From: Drancourtella massiliensis
GTDB taxonomy: Bacteria > Bacillota > Clostridia > Lachnospirales > Lachnospiraceae
Assembly (NCBI RefSeq): GCF_016900655.1
Contig: NZ_JACJKH010000015.1
Coordinates: 1 to 64,000, forward strand
Reading direction: 5' to 3'
Length of the DNA: 64,000 nucleotides
The notes under the pieces are model-generated. The model searched no databases. It worked only from the letters and a program-made list of their open reading frames with translations, and was not told the DNA's origin. The position numbers were made by a program, and so were the translations under genes. Positions 13,263-33,640 of this stretch are shown here, one piece after another. Each line of letters opens with the position of its first letter. Position 1 is the stretch's first letter.

Positions 13263-14350
13263 ATAACATGTTTGCGATAATCAATCATATCTATTCTATA
13301 AATCTGCGTATCGACACATTCACATAAATCAGGATCAAATAAGGCAAGATTATACCCATCACTATGCATTACACTTTTATACTCTATACCAGCATATTCA
13401 GCAGCACCATCATTACGAATAATACTCTTGACAAAATCGGTAATATATTGCGTTGGAACATAGTCCAAAGCACTATCACTTCTCCTCATAATTTTACCCA
13501 TTTCGTCATTTATCTTATTTAAATGCTCCTTATTAATCGCATACTCTAAACAATCTATCCCTTCTATAAATGGACTGATTTGATTAATTTCCTTTAAATC
13601 AACAACAATAATGTCCTTCTTTAATTTAAATGTACCAACCGTTACATAATCATACGCTCCAGCTCTCGTCTCATGGATCGTAGTTTCAGGACTATCGCCT
13701 AAGTACAAACACCTGATTCCTCTTGCATTTGCCCTACCATCCGTAGTTAATTTTTTTGGAGGCGCCCCCATTTCATTAGACGGAATCCCTTCTTCCGTCG
13801 ATATCCTGCATCTATAAAACAACTCACCTGCCTTATAGGGTTTACGAATGTATGAACAAAATCTTTCCAACAGATTTAAATCCACATAATGAGTGTGAAA
13901 ACGATTCTTTGTTTTTATCGCATTTACAAAATCATCCCAAGAATTAGTAACTAAAAGAGAATGTTTTGATAAATAGTCTTGGTCATATAATTCCTGAATA
14001 CCAACTGGATGATCAAATAGTTCTGCGTTATACTTATATTTTTCCTTGCATATCGCTGTTATTATATTATACACATCAGACTCGCTCTTTTTATTAAAAA
14101 TATTCCAGTTATTAATTAAATCACTCTTTAATAAACGAGTATCTGATTTTGGATATGACTCTGGCAGCAAAGAAACTGGTGTATATATACTTATCAATTC
14201 ATCAAACATCATACTCAGATCTTCATATTTATCCGTATCATATATATGTACATTTTTACATTTACACAGTGGGCAGTCCCCAATCTCTGCTTTGTTCCGG
14301 ATAACAGAAATAACTTCTGTATCGCAAAAACATTTTTCGCAAATTATCAT
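13259..14350 (-). CDS. HEPN/RES-type protein with N-terminal zinc finger
   Basis: A 363-residue protein. An N-terminal zinc-binding pair of cysteines (CEKC at 4-7, CPLC at 26-29) precedes a helical region, then a RES domain: FYRCR (about 178-182), a central segment RANARGIRCLYLGDS and HETR (226-229). RES domains in toxins such as MbcT and ParT act on NAD+ or transfer ADP-ribose; the architecture with an N-terminal HEPN-like region is a known RES subclass. It is followed by the winged-helix fragment with a 4-base overlap and preceded by the sce7725-like gene 3 bases away. No separate small antitoxin is obvious. Toxin or defence role is inferred. Confidence 0.75.
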   Translation of the reverse strand: MIICEKCFCDTEVISVIRNKAEIGDCPLCKCKNVHIYDTDKYEDLSMMFDELISIYTPVSLLPESYPKSDTRLLKSDLINNWNIFNKKSESDVYNIITAICKEKYKYNAELFDHPVGIQELYDQDYLSKHSLLVTNSWDDFVNAIKTKNRFHTHYVDLNLLERFCSYIRKPYKAGELFYRCRISTEEGIPSNEMGAPPKKLTTDGRANARGIRCLYLGDSPETTIHETRAGAYDYVTVGTFKLKKDIIVVDLKEINQISPFIEGIDCLEYAINKEHLNKINDEMGKIMRRSDSALDYVPTQYITDFVKSIIRNDGAAEYAGIEYKSVMHSDGYNLALFDPDLCECVDTQIYRIDMIDYRKHVI

Positions 14351-14353
14351 AAG

Positions 14354-15277
14354 CTACTCCTTATCCAAATATCTTCCTATTAGTTCCAAATGATGCATAA
14401 TAGATAATTTTTTCACTGTTCCTAATCCCGGATAAGCCTCTCGACGATATAAATCTTCGAATTCTTTCATTGCCGCAGTATCAAGTTGCTCTTCTTCGTT
14501 CCATACCACTAATTTCGACAATGCTTCTTGAAATTTCCCAGCTGGGTCACTTATATCATCATTCGAATCAGACACAAAATGTCTTACACGTAAACTATTA
14601 TCTGAATCAAAATATACGATATGTATTGCAACTGCATAAGGTGCAAATCCAGTTTCATTATATTCCTTGCCAACCACAGAATAATCTGCAAAACCAATAT
14701 ACCCATCTTCTAAATAGTATAAATGATCTTCCGAAAAAGGCTCATCATCAACTTCAATATAATCATTATTTCTGGGCATCTTATTGAATCTATCCGCCAA
14801 AATCACTCTGTTTTTTCTTATTTTTCTTCTAAATCCACTTTCATCCGGTATTAAATTATACTTAACATCTGCTAAAGCAAAGTATTCTTCATAAGTAGAA
14901 ATTGCATCTTTATCGTCACAAATCGTTCCCATATTGTTTGAATATTTATCAATAAATTTGTCGGGTTTTGAATTTGGCCTTAATAAATTCATAAAAAGAA
15001 TATTGCTATTTTCTGTTAAACATGCAGACAAACTTTCTTTTAACTGCTGATTTTTCTTTTCTTCAGCATCAATAATAAAGCTGCCCACCTTAGGGTTAGT
15101 AATAATGGCTAACTGCTTATTATTCTCCTTATATGTTTCTATAGTTTTGACTAGCGTAGAAGATAACTTTACAGGTTCAATAATTGGCGTTATTTTACTG
15201 CTCAAAACATCTTTCTCTACCAGTTCACGCAATGCGATTAATTCAAATTGTCGTCCTCTCAAATAAGGGAAATACAT
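14354..15277 (-). CDS. sce7725 family protein
   Basis: A 307-residue protein beginning MYFPYLRGRQFELIALREL, the recognisable opening of the sce7725 family, followed by KITPIIEPVK. No transmembrane segment or catalytic motif is apparent. I use the ATG at 15277 because it lies 8 bases after GGAGG; an ATG at 15292 is within the upstream gene. It starts 2 bases before the end of the sce7726-like gene is cleared, so the two are coupled; these two families are known to occur together. Function is not established; pairing with a nuclease-fold partner and a RES protein points to a defence or toxin module. Confidence 0.75.
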   Translation of the reverse strand: MYFPYLRGRQFELIALRELVEKDVLSSKITPIIEPVKLSSTLVKTIETYKENNKQLAIITNPKVGSFIIDAEEKKNQQLKESLSACLTENSNILFMNLLRPNSKPDKFIDKYSNNMGTICDDKDAISTYEEYFALADVKYNLIPDESGFRRKIRKNRVILADRFNKMPRNNDYIEVDDEPFSEDHLYYLEDGYIGFADYSVVGKEYNETGFAPYAVAIHIVYFDSDNSLRVRHFVSDSNDDISDPAGKFQEALSKLVVWNEEEQLDTAAMKEFEDLYRREAYPGLGTVKKLSIMHHLELIGRYLDKE

Positions 15278-15278
15278 A

Positions 15279-16142
15279 CTACGCACCTCCATATTGACGT
15301 TCTAAGAAAATTTCAAGTTTCTGATAATCATCATATGTAAATTCCATAAAATACACCAAAAACTTTAATTCATAAGGGATCTTAACAAATTCCTCTTTTT
15401 CTAGTTGCATTCTCTTTTTCAATATTCGCAAAACTTGTAAATATGACTCTTCTATGGGTATCTGCAAAAACATTTTTTTACAAGTAGAATAATATTGGAA
15501 CTGTGTAACTTCTGGCAAATAACCATATTGCTGTGCAATTATATATTCATATTCACTTTTTCTTAATAACTTAAAAATAATTTCCTTGTCCAAATCACCT
15601 GTGTATTTTTGAGGCTTTCGAACTGTACCTAACTTTCCATTTTTTCTTAATACATAAATACCTACCGGTCTATCAATATTATCCAATACTTTTTTCAACT
15701 GTTTCAGATTCTTTTCATAAGTGACCACAGCCACATGCTCAAACGCTTTATAATAGTCATCTATCTGAGACTCTAATCTTTCCAGATTATCCAATTCCGT
15801 TTTTATCTCATATACAACGGCTTTCCCATTTATTAATATAAAATCTGCTTTAGATTTTGCAATGGCAATTTCCGTTAAGGCTGTTGTCGTATTAACACTG
15901 TGCACACCTAAAAGTAATTTGTTCAACAAAGTATTCTTATAAAAATATTCATTCCGATAATTATTTTGTAATTCACAATATATTTCACTTATTAGTTCCC
16001 GGTTGTTTTTTTGGTCGGCATTACTTATATAACGTCTTACTACTGACGAATAGGCATTATCTACTTTTCCTTCTATAAAGTGGCGAAGCATATTGCGGGT
16101 AAATATTCTATTCAAATTACTTATTTTATTTGTGTTCATCAT
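15279..16142 (-). CDS. sce7726 family protein with PD-(D/E)XK nuclease-like motif
   Basis: A 287-residue protein of the sce7726 family. Residues ~97-115 read KADFILINGKAVVYEIKTE: Asp100, Glu112 and Lys114 fit the D-x(n)-E-x-K core of PD-(D/E)XK nucleases. The rest is helical, with no membrane segment. It opens with two ATGs (16142, 16139) after GGAGGCG. First gene of the four-gene AT-rich island and coupled to the sce7725-like gene. A nuclease-based role against foreign DNA is inferred, not shown. Confidence 0.75.
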   Translation of the reverse strand: MMNTNKISNLNRIFTRNMLRHFIEGKVDNAYSSVVRRYISNADQKNNRELISEIYCELQNNYRNEYFYKNTLLNKLLLGVHSVNTTTALTEIAIAKSKADFILINGKAVVYEIKTELDNLERLESQIDDYYKAFEHVAVVTYEKNLKQLKKVLDNIDRPVGIYVLRKNGKLGTVRKPQKYTGDLDKEIIFKLLRKSEYEYIIAQQYGYLPEVTQFQYYSTCKKMFLQIPIEESYLQVLRILKKRMQLEKEEFVKIPYELKFLVYFMEFTYDDYQKLEIFLERQYGGA

Positions 16143-23330: not shown

Positions 23331-23358
23331 AAGCCGGTCATTTGATTTTGACCGGCTT
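23331..23358 (-). terminator. Terminator after the M16 protease operon
   Basis: AAGCCGGTCA and its complement form a 9-bp stem with an AT loop, about 75 bases beyond the protease stop and upstream of the ClC gene. The T-tract is weak. Confidence 0.5.
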
Positions 23359-23432
23359 CTTCCATGATTCGGTGAATTTCTCCCAGATATTCTTATTCTC
23401 CTTCTCCATCTTTATCATTTCTCTATTAAGAT

Positions 23433-26210
23433 TTACTCCATCAGTACTGTTACATTGTCAAATTGGTCGGCTGTCTCTTCAATCTTCGTTCTGTTTCCAA
23501 GAACACAGACAATTCCCTCTTTGGCAAAGCTCTCCATCGTCTGATACCTGTTTTTCAAATCTTCTTCCGATGCTTTTAACACCCCTTCTCTGATCTTTGC
23601 TCTGGTCTGTGGCTCTTCCTGCCTCAGATACCAGGAATCCATTCGTTTTGCCTGTACATATGTTTTAGAAGTCCGGTCATATCCGGCAACTGCACCAATC
23701 TTATAATTCAGAAGTTCCTGCTCTCCTAATTCAAGATTTTTCAACCACCCTGAAGCGCTTTGGAAGACTTCTATCGTCCTTTTTACGTTCGGATCTCGAT
23801 AGGAGCTCATAATCCAGCTTTGATTTGGGAGTACAGACATCCGGCATCCGTAGGCCCCTCCTTCAGCGCGGATTTTGGCCCACAGATAATCAAAGCTCAC
23901 CATTCTGCCAAGAAGATAATCCTCACCGGTATATTCCCCGATTCCTCCAAGCGCAACATAGGATACCTCCGACGGAATAATGAATGCCTCTGATTTCCCG
24001 GGAAGCAATTTATCCTGATACCACCCGGGATCCCCTTTTCTTTCACTACCGACGAACCTCGAAGCTGCTATCAACTTACGGAAACCGGTATAAGATTTCT
24101 CTGTGCCTGTAAAGCTCATCACCAGATTAGACTTACTGCAAAGCTTCTTCTGAATTTTCTTAAGCTCCCGGATAATCTGCCCCTGATCCACGTCAAAGTT
24201 CTTTAGAAGTTTTCCCAAGAACTGATAATAGCGAATTCCGTTATAACGTTCCCTTGCCGCTCCTTCCGGCATATAGTGTGCTGCCACGCGGCCAGATGCA
24301 TAACTGTCTCCGCTGGTAACAAATCCCCTCTCCAGTTCCATCCGGCTCTGCCTGATCCTTTTCAGAATAATCTCCGGATGCTCCAGAATGGTGTCATACA
24401 GCAACTCTTCTCCCAGTTTTACCGCTCTTGGAAGATTCTGTTCCAGACAGCTTACATCCATCACAAATTTAAGCCTGACATGCCGGATATCATCTGCATT
24501 GGTGTACGCTTCCAGATAAGTCCTTACATTTCCAAGCCACATATTTTTCTCAATCACTAATTCTTCCAGACTGTGTATTCTTGTAGGAAGACTTCCCAGA
24601 AGTTCGGAAAACAGCTTGGCATAAGGAACTTCCTCCGGTTCCAGCTCACTGATATCAAAATAGCAGCTTTGATATGCCACTCCTTTTGAAGGGATCTCCT
24701 GCTTCAGATATGTAACCCCCTCCTCTTCCTCTACCCTTGTAAGCGGCTCCTCTTTCTTTTGAAACAGGTCATCCACAGACAGCGCCGGCAGATCTTCTGT
24801 CTCTTCTTTTTGCTTCTTCTCTTCGACCTTTTCAAGAGGTTCCAGAAAAACCTCTGCCTCATAATCATTTTCCAGGAAGGTTTCTCTTAGAAGTGCTTCA
24901 AAGTATCTTTCCTTTACAAGGGTCCTCATCTTTCTGTATGTTTCTTCAAATTCTATCATCTCGCAAGGTCCGGTTCCCTGTGCCCATCCTCCGGCAATAT
25001 CCAGTACACATTCTATTCCCTCCGGCTGGTTTCCGCCTTTTTCCCTCATCCAAAATTCCAGACGGTTAATTGCCGAAATCAATACTTCTTCTTTGATTCC
25101 TTCTCTGCAAAGTCTGTCCGCCTGTTCCTTGATAACCGTTTTCAACTGGCCGGCAGTTTCTTTGTCCGTATTCTTTATTTTAATGGCAAGATAGGGTTGT
25201 CTGATACCATCCATAATAAAATACTGAATTTCCGGGATTCCAAGACTCTGAATAAGCCCTTTTTTCATCGGTGCTTCGTCTTCCCCCATAATCGCCTGCA
25301 TAAGAATATAGACTGCATTCATACGTTCCCGGTTGTCAAAATCTCCCAGACTATAGGTGCATGACGCAAACACCCCCTGATCACCGAACTTATCCTTGTC
25401 ATACAGCTTTTTTCGGATTCCCTTTACAGGTTTCTGTCTCATGACCGGCTTCGCAGGTTCTGAGCGTTTCATTTTTCCCAGATAAGCTTTATCAATATAC
25501 TCAAACAGTTGTTCCGTATTCATTCTTCCATATAGAACAATACAGCAGTTGGACGCATTATAAAACGTCCTGTAATATTCCAGAAATTCCTCATAAGATA
25601 GAGCAGGAATCGTATCCGGAAATCCTCCGGATACAAAACGGTAAGCCGTTTCCGGAAACATTGCTTTAGATATTTCATCCTCTAATATGCTGTCCAGGGA
25701 TGAAAAGACACCTTTCATCTCATTATAAACAACGCCATTAATCTCCGGAGTTTTTCCGTCTTCGCACTGAAAATGCCAGCCCTCCTGTTCAAAGATCTCT
25801 TTATCCGTAAGAACATTCGGACAAAATACCGCGTTTAAATAAACATCCGCCAGATTCATAAAATCCTTTTCATTCTCTGTACAAAAGGGATATACTGTAT
25901 GATCCGGATACGTAATTGCATTTACGAATTCTGCCATGGAATGTTTCATCAGATTGACGAACGTATCTTTATCCGGATATTTGCGGGAACCGTTCAGCAC
26001 AGAATGCTCCAGAATATGAAAAACTCCCGTGCTGTCCTTTGGTATGGTCCGAAATCCAATCAAAAAGCTCTTTTTAACGTCCTGATTGTCTATGACGATA
26101 ACCTGCGCCCCGGTTGACAGGTGCTCCATCTGAATAATATCTCCCTCAACCTCCCGCACATACTTCTTTTCTTTAACTTCAAATCCATAGATTTTTTCCC
26201 CGATTTCCAT
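23433..26210 (-). CDS. M16C zinc metalloprotease (insulinase/PreP-like)
   Basis: A 925-residue peptidase with the inverted zinc motif HxxEH as HILEH (residues 65-69) and a distal Glu in GVVYNEMKGVFS, so catalytically intact. The arrangement is that of the presequence-protease (M16C) group: two halves joined by an acidic linker (EETYRKM ... EKVEEKKQKEETEDLP). It is somewhat shorter than the usual ~970 residues. Such enzymes degrade or process peptides of tens of residues in a closed chamber. Of two start ATGs, 26210 has better spacing from AGAGGG than 26216. Last gene of an eight-gene locus with ABC exporters, thioredoxin and a trigger-factor-like protein, which suggests peptide maturation or destruction. 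Confidence 0.87.
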   Translation of the reverse strand: MEIGEKIYGFEVKEKKYVREVEGDIIQMEHLSTGAQVIVIDNQDVKKSFLIGFRTIPKDSTGVFHILEHSVLNGSRKYPDKDTFVNLMKHSMAEFVNAITYPDHTVYPFCTENEKDFMNLADVYLNAVFCPNVLTDKEIFEQEGWHFQCEDGKTPEINGVVYNEMKGVFSSLDSILEDEISKAMFPETAYRFVSGGFPDTIPALSYEEFLEYYRTFYNASNCCIVLYGRMNTEQLFEYIDKAYLGKMKRSEPAKPVMRQKPVKGIRKKLYDKDKFGDQGVFASCTYSLGDFDNRERMNAVYILMQAIMGEDEAPMKKGLIQSLGIPEIQYFIMDGIRQPYLAIKIKNTDKETAGQLKTVIKEQADRLCREGIKEEVLISAINRLEFWMREKGGNQPEGIECVLDIAGGWAQGTGPCEMIEFEETYRKMRTLVKERYFEALLRETFLENDYEAEVFLEPLEKVEEKKQKEETEDLPALSVDDLFQKKEEPLTRVEEEEGVTYLKQEIPSKGVAYQSCYFDISELEPEEVPYAKLFSELLGSLPTRIHSLEELVIEKNMWLGNVRTYLEAYTNADDIRHVRLKFVMDVSCLEQNLPRAVKLGEELLYDTILEHPEIILKRIRQSRMELERGFVTSGDSYASGRVAAHYMPEGAARERYNGIRYYQFLGKLLKNFDVDQGQIIRELKKIQKKLCSKSNLVMSFTGTEKSYTGFRKLIAASRFVGSERKGDPGWYQDKLLPGKSEAFIIPSEVSYVALGGIGEYTGEDYLLGRMVSFDYLWAKIRAEGGAYGCRMSVLPNQSWIMSSYRDPNVKRTIEVFQSASGWLKNLELGEQELLNYKIGAVAGYDRTSKTYVQAKRMDSWYLRQEEPQTRAKIREGVLKASEEDLKNRYQTMESFAKEGIVCVLGNRTKIEETADQFDNVTVLME

Positions 26211-26222
26211 ATCCATTCCCTC

Positions 26223-26537
26223 TTAATACATGAATTCTGTGATCTTCTTTTTTATCTCTTCCACTTCCATCACACCTACGTTTTCATACTTCTTTTCACC
26301 GTCTTTGTAGAATTGAACGGTTGGAACACCAAAAATACGATTCTCTTTGGCAAGCTTCGGATAATCTGTAGTATTCACTTTGACGATATGGATAAACGGA
26401 AGTTCCGCGTCTAACTCTTCTAAAATACGTGAAAAGGCTTTACAGGGTACGCACGTTGTGGAAAAGAAATCCACGATCACAAATCCTTCCTTAATCTGTT
26501 CCTTAAAACTCTCATCATCCGCATATTGAATTGCCAT
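26223..26537 (-). CDS. Thioredoxin-like protein with CVPC active site
   Basis: A 104-residue thioredoxin fold: DFFSTTCVPCKAF with Cys29 and Cys32 (CVPC in place of the usual WCGPC), and the cis-proline loop FGVPTVQFY. No signal peptide, so cytoplasmic. AAGGAGGAAAAG precedes ATG at 26537. It sits between the trigger-factor-like and M16 protease genes with 12- and 0-base gaps. The altered redox motif suggests a dedicated partner rather than general thioredoxin. Confidence 0.87.
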   Translation of the reverse strand: MAIQYADDESFKEQIKEGFVIVDFFSTTCVPCKAFSRILEELDAELPFIHIVKVNTTDYPKLAKENRIFGVPTVQFYKDGEKKYENVGVMEVEEIKKKITEFMY

Positions 26538-27473
26538 CTACTTTTCCTCCTTAAAAAAATTCTCTGTCACATATTCTTTTACCTTATTGTAATAATAATT
26601 TACATAAAATAAAATTTCCGAATATTCATAAGTATTGATTTTTTCTGCATTTTCTTTCGTTTCATGCCAGAATTTCACGTACTCATCTATATCGTCCCGG
26701 TATTGCTCCATCGTATATCCAACGCCGCTTTTTTCTGCGTATTCCCGCCCCAGAAGGTAGCCGCAGAGTCTGTCCCATGAATCGTTCTGCACGCTTGCGA
26801 ATAATTCATAATAGCTTGAGAACGGCATCTTTCCTTCAAATTCCTCTGGCGTCATGGTTTCCAGATTCAACCCCTGTTCTTTGGAAATTGTCTTCAATCT
26901 CTTAATTTCATGATCTGTCATTTCTTTCCAGTCCGCCTTCTTAAGATCAAACGTACTGGCCTCAAAAACTTTGTCTATCACATATTGGACTGCTTCGTAT
27001 CCCTCGTTTTTTGCAATCTTCTTTTTCTGTTCCCGGATCAGACGAGCCTCATATTGTTCTATATTGCTCACTCCTTCAATTCCAAGAGCTTCTATCATCC
27101 CGTCCGTGATCACAGGAATCTTTTTTTGCTGAATGGAACGAACCGTTACAGTCACTTTCTCTCCGTCGATGTCCAGCTCACTGGCCGTCCCTTTTTTCAG
27201 CCCGATGCACATCGTTTCCAGCTTCTTGTGAAAGAACCCCTGTCCTACCATAATTTTCACGTTCTCTCTGTTAAAAAACGGATTTGCCGATTCCATATCG
27301 CATACAATAAGTGCTCCGTCCGTAACTTCCCCCGCTTCTTCCCATGTGCTGTTCTTGTTTTTTATAAAATCTATTTCTTTCTTGTACGCCTTCTCATCAA
27401 GCTTGAATACTTTCTTGTACATACTGATATCCACCTGATCATATTCGACAAACGATAAAACTTTTGACTTCAT
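26538..27473 (-). CDS. Trigger-factor-like protein (degenerate PPIase)
   Basis: A 311-residue protein. Residues ~45-130 resemble the FKBP-type domain of trigger factor (GEVTDGALIVCDM, VKIMVGQGFFHKKLETMCIGLKKGT, DGEKVTVTVRSIQQKKIPVITD) and the following part resembles its helical C-terminal arm (IEQYEARLIREQKKKIAKNEGYEAVQYVIDKV). The N-terminal ribosome-binding domain of true trigger factor is absent and the FKBP signature is eroded. ATG at 27473 has GGAGGAG. It follows the LytTR gene by 10 bases. A peptide chaperone or holdase role in this locus is inferred; similarity is partial. Confidence 0.65.
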   Translation of the reverse strand: MKSKVLSFVEYDQVDISMYKKVFKLDEKAYKKEIDFIKNKNSTWEEAGEVTDGALIVCDMESANPFFNRENVKIMVGQGFFHKKLETMCIGLKKGTASELDIDGEKVTVTVRSIQQKKIPVITDGMIEALGIEGVSNIEQYEARLIREQKKKIAKNEGYEAVQYVIDKVFEASTFDLKKADWKEMTDHEIKRLKTISKEQGLNLETMTPEEFEGKMPFSSYYELFASVQNDSWDRLCGYLLGREYAEKSGVGYTMEQYRDDIDEYVKFWHETKENAEKINTYEYSEILFYVNYYYNKVKEYVTENFFKEEK

Positions 27474-27483
27474 CTTTCTCCTC

Positions 27484-28248
27484 CTAAAGCGTAAGCTTCG
27501 CATATTTACTTTTTAGCAGTTGGAGTACTTCCTTATATTTCTCGCGACTCACCATAACTTCCCCTGCATATCCATCGAAAATCAGCGCAAAATTTTTCGA
27601 TTCATTATCCGCCCGAACATAAGATACTTTGGAAAGATTCACGATAAATGACTGATAGCACCGGTAAAAATTATAACCTTCCAGAATCTGTTCCAATTCA
27701 TTCATGGAATATCCGGCAAGGACCATCTCTTTTCCGTCCACCATCACCATCTTGTTCTTTCGGTCCGTCCGTTCGATAAAAAGAACCTTATCAATATTCA
27801 CGAGCTGATATCCGTTTCTCGTCTTGATCATCATAGAACGGTTCACAGATAACCGTTTGTATTGGAGCAGCTCAAACAAATACTGCAGCCGCTTAACCAC
27901 ACGCTGAAGCACACGGTTATCGAACGGAAGCCGAAAATATTCATCGCAGCAGCAGTCAAATACCTGCCCTGCCTCTAACTTTTCTTCTGAATACAACACC
28001 ACCAAGACATCCGGCTTTATCTGGGACAGATTGTATGCCAGAAAGGAGCCGTCCCCGCTATATCTTGGATTTCCTGTTTTTATGTTGATAAACACCGCGT
28101 CCACATCGTTCAGACAGATATATTTATTGGCTTCATTGATTCCGTCAAAGGTATGCACAATGTCAAATACATTATAAAACGCCAGTAATTCTTTCAGTTC
28201 TGTACACAATGTTTCATCACTTTCTACCAAAACAAGCTTCATTTTCAT
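27484..28248 (-). CDS. LytTR response regulator with non-canonical receiver
   Basis: A 254-residue protein: N-terminal receiver-like domain, C-terminal LytTR DNA-binding domain (about 140-245: MIKTRNGYQLVNIDKVLFIERTDRKNKMVMVDG ... FYRCYQSFIVNLSKVSYV). In the receiver the phosphoacceptor position reads AVFINIK, with Asn55 where Asp is expected, so control by phosphorylation is doubtful; no histidine kinase gene is adjacent. The ATG at 28248 is 9 bases after GGAG; TTG just upstream is less likely. It follows the anchored lipoprotein paralogue and precedes the trigger-factor-like gene, so it probably regulates this locus. Confidence 0.85.
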   Translation of the reverse strand: MKMKLVLVESDETLCTELKELLAFYNVFDIVHTFDGINEANKYICLNDVDAVFINIKTGNPRYSGDGSFLAYNLSQIKPDVLVVLYSEEKLEAGQVFDCCCDEYFRLPFDNRVLQRVVKRLQYLFELLQYKRLSVNRSMMIKTRNGYQLVNIDKVLFIERTDRKNKMVMVDGKEMVLAGYSMNELEQILEGYNFYRCYQSFIVNLSKVSYVRADNESKNFALIFDGYAGEVMVSREKYKEVLQLLKSKYAKLTL

Positions 28249-28251
28249 CAA

Positions 28252-28737
28252 TCAATTCTCCTGACCAAATTCTTCAAACGCTTTTTCTAATGCCTCCACA
28301 TCACCTTCATAATAGGTTGATAAAAGTGCAAAAGGACCATTTTTCTTCGGCATAATAATCGTACCGGCTCCATATAAATTGATTTCGCCTTTTGTCCTGA
28401 GACTCTCATATGCCTGATACTCGTCAGATTCCGGATCCAGATTTTCCAGATCCCACCAGTATATTTCGGCTCCGTCATATTTTAGTGCGAGCGTACACAG
28501 GCCTTCCGCACTGAGCGTCACTTTCGTGTCCGCATGGATCAGCCCCTTCTCCTCCAGAAATGAGACAAGTTCATCCACTGTCTTATTCCAGACAGGTATT
28601 TCTTTATCCTCTTCTTCAGGCACAGCCGCTTCTTCCTCTTTTGGAGGCATAAAGTCTTTAGACGACGCCACATATCCTACCATCCCACAAAACAGTAATA
28701 CGAAAAGCAGGGAAGACACAATCGTAAATTTTTTCAT
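28252..28737 (-). CDS. Membrane-anchored paralogue of the locus lipoprotein
   Basis: A 161-residue protein with an N-terminal hydrophobic anchor or signal (MKKFTIVSSLLFVLLFCGMVGYVASS; a Cys is present but not in a good lipobox), an acidic-proline linker (PPKEEEAAVPEEEDKEIP) and an extracellular domain containing YDGAEIYWWDLENLDP. The domain is homologous to that of the 32275-32766 lipoprotein (shared YDG, WWD-x-EN, YES, GTI, EALE/DAVK core). I place the start at 28737, spaced 6-7 bases from AAGGA; ATG at 28743 is too close. Family not recognised. Likely works on the outside of the membrane with the ABC exporter. Confidence 0.75.
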   Translation of the reverse strand: MKKFTIVSSLLFVLLFCGMVGYVASSKDFMPPKEEEAAVPEEEDKEIPVWNKTVDELVSFLEEKGLIHADTKVTLSAEGLCTLALKYDGAEIYWWDLENLDPESDEYQAYESLRTKGEINLYGAGTIIMPKKNGPFALLSTYYEGDVEALEKAFEEFGQEN

Positions 28738-28755
28738 AATCATTCCTTCTTTCTT

Positions 28756-30474
28756 TTAAGATGCCTCCGCAGACTGCAGATATTCCTGATAAGTCCTGCT
28801 TACGGCAAGTACTTCTTCATGGGTTCCGCAAGCTTCAAGGCGTCCGTGACGCATAACAACCAGATAGTCTGCTTCTGCAATCTCGCGCATATCATGGGCA
28901 ATGAAAACAATCGTATTGCCTTCCATCTTTTTCCCGATACTATGAAAGATTTTCATATACGTGTCATGATCCAGACTCGCCCCTGCCTCGTCAAGAATCA
29001 GATAATCCGGCTTCGCAATCAATGCCCTGGCAATGGCTATTCTCTGTTTCTGACCGCTTGACAAACGGTTTCCTGCCTCTCCAAGAGTTGTATCATATCC
29101 GTTGGGAAGCGCATCTATAAAAGAATCCGCTCTGGCTTCTTCCGCTGCTTTTTTCATCTCTTTCTCCGTCGTTTCTCCCTCTGCACCATACAGAATGTTA
29201 TCCCGGATTGTACCTGACATCAGCGGATTGTTCTGGAGTACATAGCCAAATTTTTTATGACATTCCCGGGGACTCGTTTCGCTTATTTTGTTTCCTCCAA
29301 CCCATATTTCTCCCGAATCAGGTTGGTAGAATCCCTGTATCAGTTTCATGACTGTAGATTTTCCGGAACCATTATCGCCGATCACTGCCGTTGTCTTTCC
29401 TCCCGGAATGCAAACGGAAAAGTCATGAAGGATTTCTTTTTCGTTCCCGTATCCAAAGTTCACGTTTTTGAATACAATATCTTTGTTCCCTGATTCTGTC
29501 CAGGAATTACCTTTTTCTGTATGTTCCTCTTCCATATCAAGAATATCCCCGACATGGACAAGTGCGCCTTTTGAGCCCATCACGTTCTGCCACACCGTCA
29601 AAAGCTCCGCCATATAAAGATTCACCTGCGTCATATAGGTGCTGAACATATTAATCCCTGTTGATTCCATTTTCCCGGCGTTAATCAATCTGGAACCGCC
29701 CACTGCCATTACAACAGTCGTAAGAAGCGAATAAAGGGAATTGGCCAGAACCTGAATCTGCTCCATGAAAGCATAGTATATATCTGCCTTATACCGTGAA
29801 TCGATTGCCGCATATCCGCTTTCCAGCTCTTTTTCTTCCATTACCTGCGCTTTTACATATTTCCCGGCCGACAGGTGTTCGGAGAAAAATGTGGTCATTT
29901 CATTCAACGCCGCATAGCGCTTTTTCATTATAGTAAACTGCAGCCTGCCGACGATGATAAACATTGCCACCGCAACCGGTATGCAGATCAAAAGGTATGC
30001 TGTGAGAGGCGAATTGTATTGATACAAGATCATACAGGCGCGGACAAATCCGAATAACGACGCAGCTCCTGAGAATATTCCGCTGATCACCAGAGTTGCC
30101 TGAGTTACGTCGTTCGTAACGGCCGACACCAGCGAGGACGGCTGTTCCTTTTCGAACTGATCCATCGGAAGATGCAGGATCTTCCTCCACATCGAAAGCC
30201 TTACCCGCAGGATCACTTTTTGATTGGCATACTCTTGCACAAGCGGCCGCAAAAATCCCAGCAACGCATTAAAAATCGTAAAAAACACATAGCCTAAAAT
30301 AACAGAATTATATAGTTCCCCCTTGTTCACACGGACCAGATACTCCGATACTCTCATTCCGATCTCGGCATAAACCACGCCGCTTCCGAATGCAATCAGG
30401 TAGAGCCACCAGGGGATCGAAAGCCTTCTGTAAAAGTTCAGAAAAAACGATATTACATGTTTGTTGTTTTTCAT
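28756..30474 (-). CDS. ABC exporter half-transporter (TMD-NBD), partner B
   Basis: A 572-residue half-transporter. Six transmembrane helices (to ~310) are followed by an ATPase: Walker A GDNGSGKST, signature LSSGQKQRIAIARAL, Walker B LILDEAGASLD, H-loop IAHD. Catalytic residues are all present. No N-terminal C39 peptidase domain. Its start overlaps the stop of the other half by 4 bases, so the two are made together and form a heterodimer. It is the exporter type used for peptides, lipids or drugs; substrate unknown. Confidence 0.86.
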   Translation of the reverse strand: MKNNKHVISFFLNFYRRLSIPWWLYLIAFGSGVVYAEIGMRVSEYLVRVNKGELYNSVILGYVFFTIFNALLGFLRPLVQEYANQKVILRVRLSMWRKILHLPMDQFEKEQPSSLVSAVTNDVTQATLVISGIFSGAASLFGFVRACMILYQYNSPLTAYLLICIPVAVAMFIIVGRLQFTIMKKRYAALNEMTTFFSEHLSAGKYVKAQVMEEKELESGYAAIDSRYKADIYYAFMEQIQVLANSLYSLLTTVVMAVGGSRLINAGKMESTGINMFSTYMTQVNLYMAELLTVWQNVMGSKGALVHVGDILDMEEEHTEKGNSWTESGNKDIVFKNVNFGYGNEKEILHDFSVCIPGGKTTAVIGDNGSGKSTVMKLIQGFYQPDSGEIWVGGNKISETSPRECHKKFGYVLQNNPLMSGTIRDNILYGAEGETTEKEMKKAAEEARADSFIDALPNGYDTTLGEAGNRLSSGQKQRIAIARALIAKPDYLILDEAGASLDHDTYMKIFHSIGKKMEGNTIVFIAHDMREIAEADYLVVMRHGRLEACGTHEEVLAVSRTYQEYLQSAEAS

Positions 30475-32201
30475 CTGCCCTGTCCCTCACTTCCTATTAA
30501 TTCTCGGTAATATGTATTCTCGGCATATACTTCCTCCGGTTCTCCCTGACAGATAATCCTTCCGTTATGCATTACTATGATATAATCTGCTTTCTGTACG
30601 GTCTGTCTGTCGTGGGCAACCATAAGCACGGTTTTACCTTCCATATGCCGTTTCACACTCTTCCATACCTGATCTTTTCCCCGGATGTCCATAGCCGCGG
30701 TCGCCTCATCCATAAACAGATAATCCGATTGTTTTAGAAGCGCCCTCGCAAAAGCAATCCGCTGTTTCTGTCCGCCGGAAAGTTTGTCGCCCTGCTCGCC
30801 TACATCCGTCTGGAAGCCCTCCGGCTGTTCCCTGATAAAATCCATGATTTCTGCGTCCGTACATGCTTTTTCCAGTTCTTCATCCGTCACCTCTCTTTTA
30901 ATGCCGAACAGGATATTGTCGCGGATCGTTCCCGCAAACAATGTACTTTCCTGTGTTATGTATGAAATCTCGCTTCGGAAGCTCTTGAGCGAATACCGTG
31001 CGGTATCTTTGCCCCCAAATAAAATCTTGCCTCCCGAAACCGGATACATACGTTCCACCAGATTCAGAAGGGTCGTCTTTCCGCTTCCTGACGGTCCGAT
31101 AAGCGCCGTCACGCGCCCTGCAGGGATCTTCAGATTGAGTTTATCGAATATAAGTTTCTCTTCATAAGAAAAATCAACCTCTTTTAATTCAATATCGCCG
31201 CTGAGACGTTCCACATGCTCGCCGGCTTCTACGTCTTCTTCCATTTCTTCCATAATCTGAGCTACTCTTCTGGTCGCTCCCTGGGAACCCTTGAAGGTTG
31301 TCCAATATACACAGTACGTGCTGAGCTGATTAACGATATTCACCGCGAATCCATAATAGGCAATCCATTGGGTAAGAGTCAATGCGCCGGATGAATAAAA
31401 GCTTCGGCCTACCATCACGATCACAATAAACTGCATAGCTCCCACCAATGCATACATCGGAGTTGCGAATCCCAGCCACGCATTCAGAATCGAACTTTTA
31501 TAGAACCCGTTCATCTTCTCCCGCCCTGTCTGAAGTTCTTTTTCTTCTTTTCCGTAAGATTTGACGAGAAGAAGATTATTGGTTTTTTCTGCAATCGTCT
31601 GTGTCAGCTCTGCATTTTTTTGATTTACCAGATCCAGCACTCCGAACTTCATCTTTCCCATGACGAATGCAATGACTAAATTCAGCGGAAGAACCGCGAT
31701 CAGAGCAATCATCAGCTTCTGGTCGTAGGATCCGATTTTTCCCAGCGTAATGACCAGCGTATATGCGGAAGTGAGAATCGCAACAAATACTTGCATGATT
31801 AACTGACTGATTGCCGTGATATCCGTTGTAATACGGGAAATCATTTCTTTGGGCTTATTTTTTTCGTAATATCGAAGCGGCAGCCTGACGGTCTTACTCC
31901 AGATCATTTTCCTGATATTACGGTCAATTCGCGCAACACACAAGTTACTCATAATCTTGCTGACCGAATTGATCAGCTGGGATAGTAATGTAAAAGCCAA
32001 AAACGGAAGAATCACGGTACCAAAATTCACATTCCCGGCAAATAATTCGGCCGTGTATTCCGTTACGCTGATTCCTACATTGCTAAGAAGAGCTGTAATG
32101 GCAATATATGCAAGAATCCACAGATAAGGAAGTCTTGCCTTCTGCAGCATGCGGAAGAAGCGTCCCATGCTGCCCCTGTCTTTTCCAAAAACCCGTTCCA
32201 T
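30471..32201 (-). CDS. ABC exporter half-transporter (TMD-NBD), partner A
   Basis: A 576-residue half-transporter with an N-terminal six-helix domain and an ATPase: Walker A GPSGSGKTT, signature LSGGQKQRIAFARAL, Walker B LFMDEATAAMD, H-loop VAHD. Both this and its partner keep the catalytic Glu and His, so neither is a dead site. AGGTAGGG lies before the ATG at 32201. It follows the lipoprotein gene by 73 bases and is coupled to partner B (ATGA overlap). Confidence 0.87.
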   Translation of the reverse strand: MERVFGKDRGSMGRFFRMLQKARLPYLWILAYIAITALLSNVGISVTEYTAELFAGNVNFGTVILPFLAFTLLSQLINSVSKIMSNLCVARIDRNIRKMIWSKTVRLPLRYYEKNKPKEMISRITTDITAISQLIMQVFVAILTSAYTLVITLGKIGSYDQKLMIALIAVLPLNLVIAFVMGKMKFGVLDLVNQKNAELTQTIAEKTNNLLLVKSYGKEEKELQTGREKMNGFYKSSILNAWLGFATPMYALVGAMQFIVIVMVGRSFYSSGALTLTQWIAYYGFAVNIVNQLSTYCVYWTTFKGSQGATRRVAQIMEEMEEDVEAGEHVERLSGDIELKEVDFSYEEKLIFDKLNLKIPAGRVTALIGPSGSGKTTLLNLVERMYPVSGGKILFGGKDTARYSLKSFRSEISYITQESTLFAGTIRDNILFGIKREVTDEELEKACTDAEIMDFIREQPEGFQTDVGEQGDKLSGGQKQRIAFARALLKQSDYLFMDEATAAMDIRGKDQVWKSVKRHMEGKTVLMVAHDRQTVQKADYIIVMHNGRIICQGEPEEVYAENTYYRELIGSEGQGR

Positions 32202-32274
32202 ATTGTTTCCCTACCTTTTCTTAATTTCAGAGCATTGGTACTAGAATATAAATAGTGCAAATCACATTGAACTG

Positions 32275-32766
32275 TTATTCGTTTTCTATCATTTCAAACA
32301 CTTTAACCGCATCCTGTTTCTTTTCATAATCCTCTGAAAATGCAATTGCGTAAGTTCCGTTTACCGCTTCCGTCTCAAGGACCGCAGCGCCTCCGGCAAG
32401 GACTATCGTTCCTTGGTTGGCAGCCATAGACTCATAGTTTTCATATAGATCCGTCTTGTTTTCCGGATCCCACCAGAACAGCCAGAGTCCATCATAATCA
32501 TATGCTTTATCCGCCACTTTCGTCTCAGTAAACTGTCCATTCGTATTGTCTGTGAGATATCCTGGTGTTTCATTGATATCTACCGGTTCGCAGTCCTCCA
32601 AAATGAGTCCTTCCTGCTCAAAATAATCCACCATATCTTCGTATGGAGAAGTGGACGCATTCACTTCAATTTTTTCTTCTTTCGACGTACATCCCGCCAT
32701 CATTCCGCATACAGTTGCTGTTACAATGGCAGCTGCCACAATCTTCTTCATCCTTTTTGTGCTCAT
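32275..32766 (-). CDS. Secreted lipoprotein with WWDPEN motif
   Basis: A 163-residue protein with a lipoprotein signal peptide ending MAGC (Cys26), then a small extracellular domain with YDGLWLFWWDPEN, YENYESMAANQGTIVLAG and a C-terminal DAVKVFEMI. The same domain recurs in the 28252-28737 protein of this locus; the two are paralogous but clearly diverged. ATG at 32766 follows GGAG at 9 bases. First gene of the locus. Likely substrate-receptor, immunity or sensing protein for the ABC exporter; family not recognised. Confidence 0.8.
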   Translation of the reverse strand: MSTKRMKKIVAAAIVTATVCGMMAGCTSKEEKIEVNASTSPYEDMVDYFEQEGLILEDCEPVDINETPGYLTDNTNGQFTETKVADKAYDYDGLWLFWWDPENKTDLYENYESMAANQGTIVLAGGAAVLETEAVNGTYAIAFSEDYEKKQDAVKVFEMIENE

Positions 32767-32811
32767 CTCATCAATCTCCTTTTATAAAAATTTTACAATC
32801 AAGTTTCTTTA

Positions 32812-32840
32812 TTTTTACAATAAAATCAGCAGTTTAACAA
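32812..32840 (-). promoter_or_regulatory. Possible promoter of the eight-gene locus
   Basis: TTGTTA, 17-base spacer, TAAAAA on the minus strand, about 45 bases before the lipoprotein ATG. The -10 is imperfect and other AT-rich hexamers nearby compete. Further upstream (32846-32910) two tiny overlapping reading frames occur. The rest of 32767-33170 shows no gene. Confidence 0.35.
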
Positions 32841-32969
32841 GAAGGTTATCCTATTTTGTCCTTCATTTCGCTCATAGTGTCTTTTTATCTCTCATCTCAG
32901 TTATTTTCACTTCCGCCTCCTGCTCTGTCTGATAAGCTCTTTTAGGAGATCTTTAAAAAGTCATTCATC

Positions 32970-33213: not shown

Positions 33214-33227
33214 ATCTAATAAAAAAA

Positions 33228-33301
<74 letters not shown>

Positions 33302-33305
33302 AAAG

Positions 33306-33376
33306 CTACGGATAGAGGACTCGAACCTCTACTAACAGAGTCAGAGTCTGCTGTGCTGCCATTACACCAATCCGCA
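33306..33376 (-). tRNA. tRNA-Gln(CTG), copy 2
   Basis: 71 bases. Acceptor arms TGCGGAT and ATCCGTA with the U1-A72 pair usual for tRNA-Gln; anticodon loop CTCTGAC gives CTG (reads CAG); T-arm GGTTCGAGTCC. No encoded CCA. Confidence 0.92.
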
Positions 33377-33450
33377 TCGCTGCTTTCTGTCTTTCAAAGC
33401 GTTTTTAATATATGTTGTTTTCATCGGCAAAAATTGAGTTTTTCCGGTGA

Positions 33451-33524
<74 letters not shown>

Positions 33525-33528
33525 ATAA

Positions 33529-33599
33529 CTACGGATAGAGGACTCGAACCTCTACTAACAGAGTCAGAGTCTGCTGTGCTGCCATTACACCAATCCGCA
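33529..33599 (-). tRNA. tRNA-Gln(CTG), copy 1
   Basis: Identical to the 33306-33376 gene over its full length. First tRNA of the transcript, about 40 bases downstream of the promoter at 33641-33668. Confidence 0.92.
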
Positions 33600-33640
33600 T
33601 CAGCATTTGCCGTGTCACTGTTTTATCAGCGAACAAGACT

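Follow-up and report, generated by a model that had tools for sequence, protein, structure and literature searches.

Gene content of the locus

Eight open reading frames (ORFs) lie at positions 23433-32766 of the window, by which we mean the whole 64,000-nucleotide stretch of Drancourtella massiliensis DNA analysed here (contig NZ_JACJKH010000015.1, positions 1 to 64,000). They form a single run on the minus strand, which we treat as an operon, with intergenic distances of 73, -4, 12, 0, -20, 0 and 6 nt from the lipoprotein A gene to the M16C peptidase gene. A first-pass annotation of the DNA had described eight co-directional genes with short gaps or overlaps, including two ABC half-exporters, a thioredoxin and an M16C protease. 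The ORFs and the Pfam domains agree with this: ABC_membrane and ABC_tran domains are found in two of the proteins, and LytTR, thioredoxin and M16C/PreP domains in one each. For the two small proteins and the trigger-factor-like one, neither Pfam nor NCBIfam gave a match that exceeds its cut-off.

The first gene (32275-32766) encodes lipoprotein A, a small acidic protein of 163 aa recognised from its ORF, net charge and lipobox (MAGC), and presumably an extracellular binding protein. Two ABC half-transporters follow, identified from Pfam domains, motifs and PDB matches. Half-transporter 1 (ABC1, 30471-32201) has the type IV (exporter) fold and the canonical signature LSGGQ; half-transporter 2 (ABC2, 28756-30474), which overlaps it by 4 nt, has the altered signature LSSGQ. 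The next gene (28252-28743) had been annotated as the second of a pair of lipoproteins. The lipobox bears this out for lipoprotein A, but no standard lipobox was found in the second small protein, which is 32% identical to lipoprotein A (tblastn cross-match, E 4e-7) and is probably an N-terminally anchored paralogue of it. The fifth gene (27484-28251) encodes the LytTR regulator. Its DNA-binding domain is as annotated (Pfam LytTR, 1.4e-16), but its receiver is degenerate: the Response_reg match of 0.0016 falls below that family's cut-off, and in the alignment VFINI stands where FLDIE is expected, with the phosphorylated Asp replaced by Asn and the conserved Lys gone. Such a pseudo-receiver would be incompetent for phosphorylation.

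The trigger-factor-like gene (26538-27473) comes next. Its ORF opens at 27503 and a GGAGG sequence precedes 27473, 10 nt past the LytTR stop; the true start is probably 27473. The sole PDB match of its profile (A3) is trigger factor 1t11 (E 1.9e-4). A homologue from another locus (L110) aligns with positions 106-365 of the 410 in the TIGR00115 tig model at 57.6 bits (equivalog cut-off 180.2); the window protein has no match to TIGR00115 at E 0.1 and matches the NCBIfam model NF045969 (trigger factor-related chaperone) at 29.5 bits. The aligned proteins start just ahead of the PPIase domain, and the N-terminal ribosome-binding domain is missing. Judged from these alignments, the protein is a trigger factor reduced to the PPIase and C-terminal chaperone parts; the first-pass annotation had the homology right and had neither the missing domain nor the probable start. 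The genome also has a separate, full-length ordinary tig (G000:C14). The thioredoxin gene (26223-26537; Pfam 7.7e-19) has the active site CVPC. By inspection, no signal peptide is visible in the thioredoxin or in the trigger-factor-like protein, which is presumably cytoplasmic. The last gene (23433-26216) encodes a PreP-like M16C metallopeptidase (Pfam M16C_assoc and PreP_C) with its HILEH motif intact. It is a second copy, 36% identical to the ordinary M16C of the genome at C132.

Recurrence in Clostridia

In our analysis the parts of this operon recur in 19 loci (L numbers) from 17 genomes (G numbers) of anaerobic Clostridia, gut and rumen species among them, in shuffled order and with identities down to about 20% for the trigger factor and about 30% for the ABC proteins. 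Some contigs are cut, and all counts over the 19 loci are lower bounds. A single-protein search of 98 relatives gave one near-identical match (G001) and two remote ones. Of the latter, that of G007 (L041) is surrounded by unrelated genes, and that of G014 (L040) stands in a run with a sensor kinase, a LytTR regulator, ABC1, ABC2, trigger factor, thioredoxin, lipoprotein, FTR catalytic chain (FTRc) and M16C. Profiles made from such pairs were run over 397 genomes of the family, 295 of the order and 341 of the class, and a pattern search through 84,980 genomes of named species gave 7 loci. Within the family, the system is carried by at least 10 of the 397 (G000, G001, G014, G114, G241, G254, G270, G285, G301 and G337, the last with three loci), and this figure is a lower bound because most weaker profile matches, whose open frames are mostly of 350-540 aa, were left uninspected and presumed to be ordinary tig or secreted trigger factors. 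Other loci come from three genomes in other families of the order (G438, G455, G484), from one outside the order in the same class (G966) and from the named contigs L108-L110. The seven named records are from Lachnospiraceae, Butyrivibrio, Eubacterium and Oscillospiraceae metagenome-assembled genomes, two of them from roe deer rumen.

The thioredoxin gene directly follows the trigger-factor-like gene in 18 of the 19 loci (exception L088), and at least part of the ABC pair is likewise present in 18 (exception L091). One co-directional run in G270 consists of genes for thioredoxin reductase (TrxR), M18 aminopeptidase, a YitT-like membrane protein, M16C, a 1049-aa surface protein and a lipoprotein, and continues with ABC1, ABC2, trigger factor, thioredoxin, kinase and regulator. 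G337 has the system three times over, in diverged copies on separate contigs (L086, L087, L088), and upstream of one of them are transposase-like ORFs (L087:28-2007), which we take to be of the IS200/IS605 type.

Twelve other M16C loci (L042-L053), a non-random sample chosen as second or diverged copies, gave no tblastn match to the window's thioredoxin, LytTR or trigger-factor proteins; the same test recovers the thioredoxin and LytTR genes of L040 and misses its trigger factor, and the control is valid for the first two. Nor was an ABC, thioredoxin or LytTR match obtained at the locus of an ordinary tig (L095) or at those of two secreted lipoprotein forms (L093, L094). The full set is absent from the six other trigger-factor-type loci that were read (L041, L093, L094, L095, L105, L106); unrelated ABC ATPase genes lie near L041 and others of these six. 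The first-pass annotation had named scattering of the genes in other genomes as what would speak against a common unit; such scattering was looked for, and the parts were found together in the 19 loci. Their recurrence across genera and families shows them to belong together, and since the loci are spread over independent contigs an assembly artefact is very unlikely.

Surface lipoproteins

Small secreted proteins are present in 16 of the 19 loci, each with a lipobox or, in the window-type second copy, an N-terminal anchor; none was seen in L102, and the contig of L103 is cut. The initial choice of these proteins went by where the gene lay and whether a lipobox was present, and several were also their own query; for this reason we do not claim that they are one family. 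That of L091 matched only itself. Three types occur, type I, the window type and type III. By profile comparison, type I is probably a relative of the window type (hhalign 91%, to which the signal peptide contributes); type III resembles type I in the signal peptide alone and the window type weakly. The structural model of the window lipoprotein is poor (pLDDT 51) and that of its L110 homologue good (pLDDT 81.5, core above 90), and the latter has no Foldseek match at E <= 0.001. Its best VIA-align match, S-adenosylmethionine decarboxylase (Z 4.4, root mean square deviation 3.2, 86 residues), was judged meaningless. The acidity of the lipoproteins was considered as a sign of cationic-peptide binding and dropped, as other lipoproteins in these loci are similarly acidic. 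In one locus (L092:8011-11160) a 1049-aa anchored surface protein contains a YDERYVLHGG-like segment about five times (counted by eye); the segment is also found in type III lipoproteins, and the linkers are rich in Pro/Asn and in Glu. Beside the G966 copy there is a second, divergent lipoprotein-like ORF (L118:14978-15649), which is like the lipoprotein of the system in the signal-peptide region only.

Transporter, regulator and enzymes

The PDB chains matched by ABC1 at E <= 1e-60 (best 60 of 79) are ABCB-type exporters such as P-glycoprotein and BmrA. The best NCBIfam model for ABC2 is TAP2, at 313 bits against a cut-off of 875. Both proteins stay below the cut-offs for the CydDC thiol exporter (ABC1 228.7 bits against 435 and 208.7 against 329; ABC2 215.3 and 179.3 bits), and the C39 peptidase domain of peptidase-containing bacteriocin exporters (PCAT) is absent among their 18 and 11 Pfam matches. 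The pairing of one canonical signature, LSGGQ, with an altered one, LSSGQ or LSAGQ, was seen in the window, L040 and L110; in the remaining loci the search pattern missed variants. The direction of transport cannot be read from ABC sequence. In G285, ABC2 is broken into two overlapping ORFs of 460 and 209 aa (L085:2369-4377), by a frameshift or an assembly error.

A LytTR regulator is found in 13 of the 19 loci and a GHKL kinase in nine. Switches of this kind are used for extracellular peptides. In receiver alignments read by eye, the phosphorylated Asp and the Lys are kept in the seven kinase-bearing loci compared (L040, L086, L088, L090, L092, L102, L104). The Asn and the loss of the Lys extend throughout the window clade (the window, L039, L084 and L085), in which no kinase stands next to the operon. 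The cysteine motif CCC of the pseudo-receivers was considered as a redox switch; in L085 it is CGC.

The thioredoxin motif across the loci is CVPC, CIPC, CGPC, CNPC or CGAC, and eight of the 19 loci hold a gene for a likely thioredoxin reductant, FTRc in three and TrxR in five. FTRc is present in L040, L087 and L118, with all six Cys (CPC, C[IV]C and CHC) in each; the L040 protein matches PF02943 (FeThRed_B) at 23.9 bits against a cut-off of 22, and those of L087 and L118 are 71% and 64% identical to it. TrxR, with the motif CATC, is present in L090, L103, L104, L110 and L119, called from Pfam in L090, from NCBIfam in L104 and L110 and by blast in L103 and L119. The two NCBIfam calls have TRX_reduct as their best match and score 198.8 (L110) and 196.5 bits (L104), below its equivalog cut-off of 343.45; by these scores, the two proteins are diverged relatives of thioredoxin reductase.

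M16C is found in nine of the 19 loci, and HxxEH is kept in all seven of those examined. M16 enzymes cut peptides, not folded proteins, and M16C has a closed chamber. An M18 aminopeptidase occurs in four loci from two lineages, the window clade (L039, L084, L085) and L119. A CyuA-type protein also occurs in four loci from two lineages, the window clade (the same three loci) and L110, where its position in the operon is different. The L084 protein matches SDH_alpha in Pfam and the L110 protein is 51% identical to it; there was no NCBIfam match. All four contain the motif MGCTEP. A Cys23-x-Glu25 pair is present in true desulfidases and absent from serine dehydratases, according to one report (PMC12647591), and with the Cys-x-Glu pair in this motif the four proteins are, on that description, L-cysteine desulfidases. 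In G285 (L085) the C-terminal half of CyuA differs from that of L084, either as a mosaic or through assembly.

Two further loci, L105:8575-11295 and L106:6818-9538 (G360 and G576), have a secreted trigger-factor-like lipoprotein adjoining an M18 gene, with the rest of the system absent. A search of viral contigs with two trigger-factor-like queries returned no relatives.

A trimmed copy and horizontal transfer

In G001, G301 and G285 the operon runs on into an M18 aminopeptidase gene and then into a gene for a CyuA-type cysteine desulfidase. Comparison with these three loci by blastn identifies in the window a 57-nt scar of the M18 gene (23352-23408, minus strand), in which the start of the gene is fused, at a 10-bp direct repeat (23383-23392), to a piece from about 1.1 kb downstream. 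The rest of the window genome did not yield the deleted M18 and CyuA genes; the best matches there are 69% and 66% identical to those of L084, against 98% for those of G001. Because of the M18 scar, the lack of a kinase and a receiver without the phosphorylated Asp and Lys, we consider the window operon to be a derived, trimmed form. Terminator-like hairpins flank the run on the minus strand, one downstream (23359-23330; 11 pairs, 7 of them G-C) and one upstream (33001-32978, with a shorter one nested inside), and the other two minus-strand hairpins are weaker and both within the M16C gene; the scan as a whole was near chance, with 9 matches over both strands against 7.3 expected. The first bases of the downstream hairpin overlap the M18 scar.

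Over 9.5 kb, the window DNA is 96.7% identical to that of G001, 93.1% to that of G301 and 90-93% to that of G285, and the eight proteins are 86-96% identical to those of G301. The ordinary tig proteins are 94% (G001), 73% (G301) and, in pieces, 72-81% (G285) identical to that of the window genome. The operon DNA is thus 93% identical to that of another genus, G301, whose tig protein is 73% identical, and from this difference we infer that the operon has recently moved horizontally. The genome with the most similar tig (G002, 97%) had no match to the two operon proteins searched. Homology to G001 and G301 ends about 133 nt ahead of the lipoprotein A gene, leaving a conserved upstream region (blastn; 32767-32899, minus strand) that probably holds the promoter, and neither flank of the window operon matches the available flanks of G001 and G301. 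In the window and G301 alike, tRNA genes adjoin the operon; in G001, 6.4 kb of upstream sequence yielded none. By the upstream end of the window operon the tRNA genes include tandem, nearly identical 152-nt copies of a tRNA-Pro/tRNA-Gln pair (33227-33601), and a tRNA array is likewise present in L084. Elsewhere in the window, positions 14001-16000 are strongly A+T-rich (GC 0.311, against 0.41-0.52 in other 2-kb bins) and possibly foreign DNA.

Possible function

The claim of the first-pass annotation that the genes form one functional locus acting on a peptide is supported by the recurrence of the parts across genera and families. We think it quite possible, if not yet probable, that the operon is a transferable one which, on induction, captures, takes up, reduces and digests disulfide-bonded peptides from outside the cell. 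The small surface lipoproteins would bind the peptide outside the cell and the heterodimeric ABC transporter would move it into the cytoplasm, where the ribosome-free trigger factor would hold and unfold the incoming chain and isomerise its prolines. The dedicated thioredoxin, recharged by FTRc or TrxR where these are present, would reduce its disulfides, and the M16C peptidase would then cut the reduced peptide. Where present, the M18 aminopeptidase and cysteine desulfidase would degrade the fragments further, with amino acids, pyruvate, ammonia and sulfide as end products. The GHKL kinase and LytTR regulator would turn the operon on when peptide is outside; in the window lineage the kinase has been lost and the receiver has degenerated. 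The benefit may be food, or protection from peptides of the host or of rivals. Here the dedicated reductants suggest that disulfides would be broken in the cytoplasm, and M16C, M18 and CyuA that the peptide would be taken to amino acids and its cysteine to sulfide; what the substrate is, that it moves inward and that the lipoproteins bind it we infer. The repeats of the L092 surface protein and the lack of a ribosome-binding domain in the trigger factor also speak for this reading, and the Sap system of Haemophilus is a precedent for it. More speculatively, and on balance improbably, the operon may be a self-contained mobile machine that captures, imports, reduces and digests disulfide-armoured peptides such as host defensins and rival bacteriocins, with the exporter-fold ABC pair working inward and supplying the ribosome-free trigger factor and a line of dedicated thioredoxin, reductase and peptidase, at the end of which some lineages would destroy the cysteine.

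Several observations weigh against uptake. Both ABC proteins are closest by sequence to exporters (ABCB/P-glycoprotein and BmrA, with MsbA for ABC1 and TM288 for ABC2). Exporter-fold ABC importers do exist (PMC10967856), but IrtAB, YbtPQ and Rv1819c are not among the matches listed at E <= 1e-60 (best 60 of 79 for ABC1, all 57 for ABC2). No thioredoxin reductant gene is seen in 11 of the 19 loci, M16C is missing from 10, and 14 lack both M18 and CyuA, some of these contigs being cut. The window lineage has dispensed with its operon copies of M18 and CyuA, paralogues of which are found elsewhere in its genome. Nothing clearly related in structure to the lipoprotein model came up (best Z 4.4), the lipoproteins are no more acidic than others in these loci, and they fall into three types that need not share an origin.

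The main rival, in our view doubtful, is that a cysteine-containing peptide or small protein, with a precursor encoded elsewhere, is made and exported. Trigger factor and thioredoxin would keep it unfolded and reduced, the lipoproteins would fold it, hold it or give immunity, and M16C would remove its leader or waste. The ABC pair is indeed most like exporters, GHKL kinases with LytTR regulators are the usual control of peptide bacteriocins, and a two-component system with an ABC transporter and a small lipoprotein recalls lantibiotic loci. However, a hunt for ORFs of 15-110 aa behind a Shine-Dalgarno site, made between and around the genes in 16 of the 19 loci, gave 14 candidates, and no pair of them is alike at E 1e-3; precursors encoded elsewhere, overlapping genes or lacking a good ribosome site may have escaped it. 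The first-pass annotation had recognised neither a precursor nor a modification enzyme, and none emerged here: no modification enzyme is among the annotated proteins, and no lantibiotic precursor or LanB/C/M was recognised among the neighbours read or the small ORFs, not every neighbour having been scanned for families. The window ABC proteins have no C39 peptidase, the redox partners of thioredoxin in eight loci are reductants, not oxidases, and CyuA and M18 are hard to place in synthesis. The lack of a recurring precursor thus weakens peptide production, and its proposal in the first-pass annotation, as a signal or bacteriocin, is not supported: the reducing partners (FTRc in three loci, TrxR in five) of a thioredoxin without a signal peptide and the occurrence of M18 or CyuA in three lineages fit consumption better. 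We therefore prefer uptake to production, since no precursor-like small ORF recurs and reductants, M18 and CyuA fit consumption or disposal.

Self-protection by efflux seems unlikely to us. A disulfide-bonded antimicrobial peptide would be pumped off the membrane in the manner of BmrA or LanFEG, with the lipoproteins as decoys and the cytoplasmic enzymes as clean-up, which suits an exporter-like ABC pair, a regulator in 13 and a kinase in nine loci, surface lipoproteins, patchy spread and horizontal transfer. A lone pump, however, would hardly call for an operon that also supplies its own chaperone, thioredoxin, reductase and peptidase, and the cysteine desulfidase would be unexplained. Mitochondrial PreP with Mdl1/TAPL is a model for intracellular quality control with peptide efflux, and by analogy misfolded cytoplasmic proteins might be reduced and unfolded before M16C cuts them into fragments that leave the cell as waste or as a signal. 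The PreP-like M16C and the TAP2 match of ABC2, well under its cut-off, agree with this, but lipoproteins, surface repeats and an external sensor kinase would be superfluous and the peptide specificity of M16 enzymes does not suit it; we regard it as still less likely than efflux. That the genes are chance neighbours or housekeeping synteny is barely credible: every part except the small surface proteins comes from a common family, but the parts recur, rearranged, over several families, and neither the 12 other M16C loci (thioredoxin, LytTR) nor the three control trigger-factor-type loci (ABC, thioredoxin, LytTR) had matches to the parts sought.

Relation to known systems and implications

Like the uptake proposed here, the Sap system of non-typeable Haemophilus influenzae acts on captured peptides with an external binding protein, an ABC transporter and a cytoplasmic peptidase, importing antimicrobial peptides that are then reportedly degraded in the cytoplasm (PMC3207918). 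The operon differs from Sap in its exporter-fold heterodimer, for which import is proposed, its small unrelated lipoprotein, chaperone, thioredoxin, reductase and M16C, and its two-component control. The parts of Sap are Dpp-like. Lantibiotic immunity and regulation modules (LanFEG, LanI, LanRK) likewise combine a two-component system, an ABC transporter and a lipoprotein of about 165 aa, but here the ABC architecture is different, control is of the LytTR/GHKL and not the OmpR type, no biosynthetic genes were seen, and cytoplasmic reduction and proteolysis are added. Mitochondrial and chloroplast PreP is a single-chain M16C with HxxEH and PreP_C, and differs from the enzyme described here in that the latter is in a bacterial operon as a second copy beside the ordinary M16C of the genome. 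The PPIase and C-terminal chaperone domains are homologous to those of bacterial trigger factor, from which the protein is set apart by the lack of the ribosome-binding domain, a gene adjoining those for thioredoxin and the ABC proteins, and an ordinary tig elsewhere in its own genome. In the cyuA-cyuP cysteine fermentation operon of E. coli an uptake gene is coupled to CyuA (PMC9040844); there free cysteine is imported via CyuP, whereas here CyuA is an accessory in two lineages.

PADLOC gave no match for the six window proteins tested, and PHROGs two weak matches to families of unknown function. By gene content, the operon belongs to none of the known systems against which it was tested; in its working it would be akin to import-and-degrade or peptide-immunity systems. 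The first-pass annotation knew of no described system with this exact set; our literature search (open-licence PMC full text) found no described counterpart of the gene combination, and we regard the system as undescribed as far as that literature goes.

Were transport to prove outward, the limits of a conserved system of several genes, as yet without a name, would still have been drawn here and the system made testable. If the proposed uptake is correct, some commensal Clostridia would have, in transferable form, a way to neutralise or eat disulfide-bonded peptides, for example host defensins or the bacteriocins of competitors, and defence peptides would be linked to bacterial sulfide production. 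Trigger factors that lack the ribosome-binding domain would also gain a function, the exporter-fold ABC pair would be a fresh case of one possibly working inward, and the trigger factor-thioredoxin gene pair would be a marker for such operons in metagenomes. A machine that captures, imports, reduces and digests such peptides would, if real, be a novel type of system by which bacteria feed on peptides or gain immunity to them.

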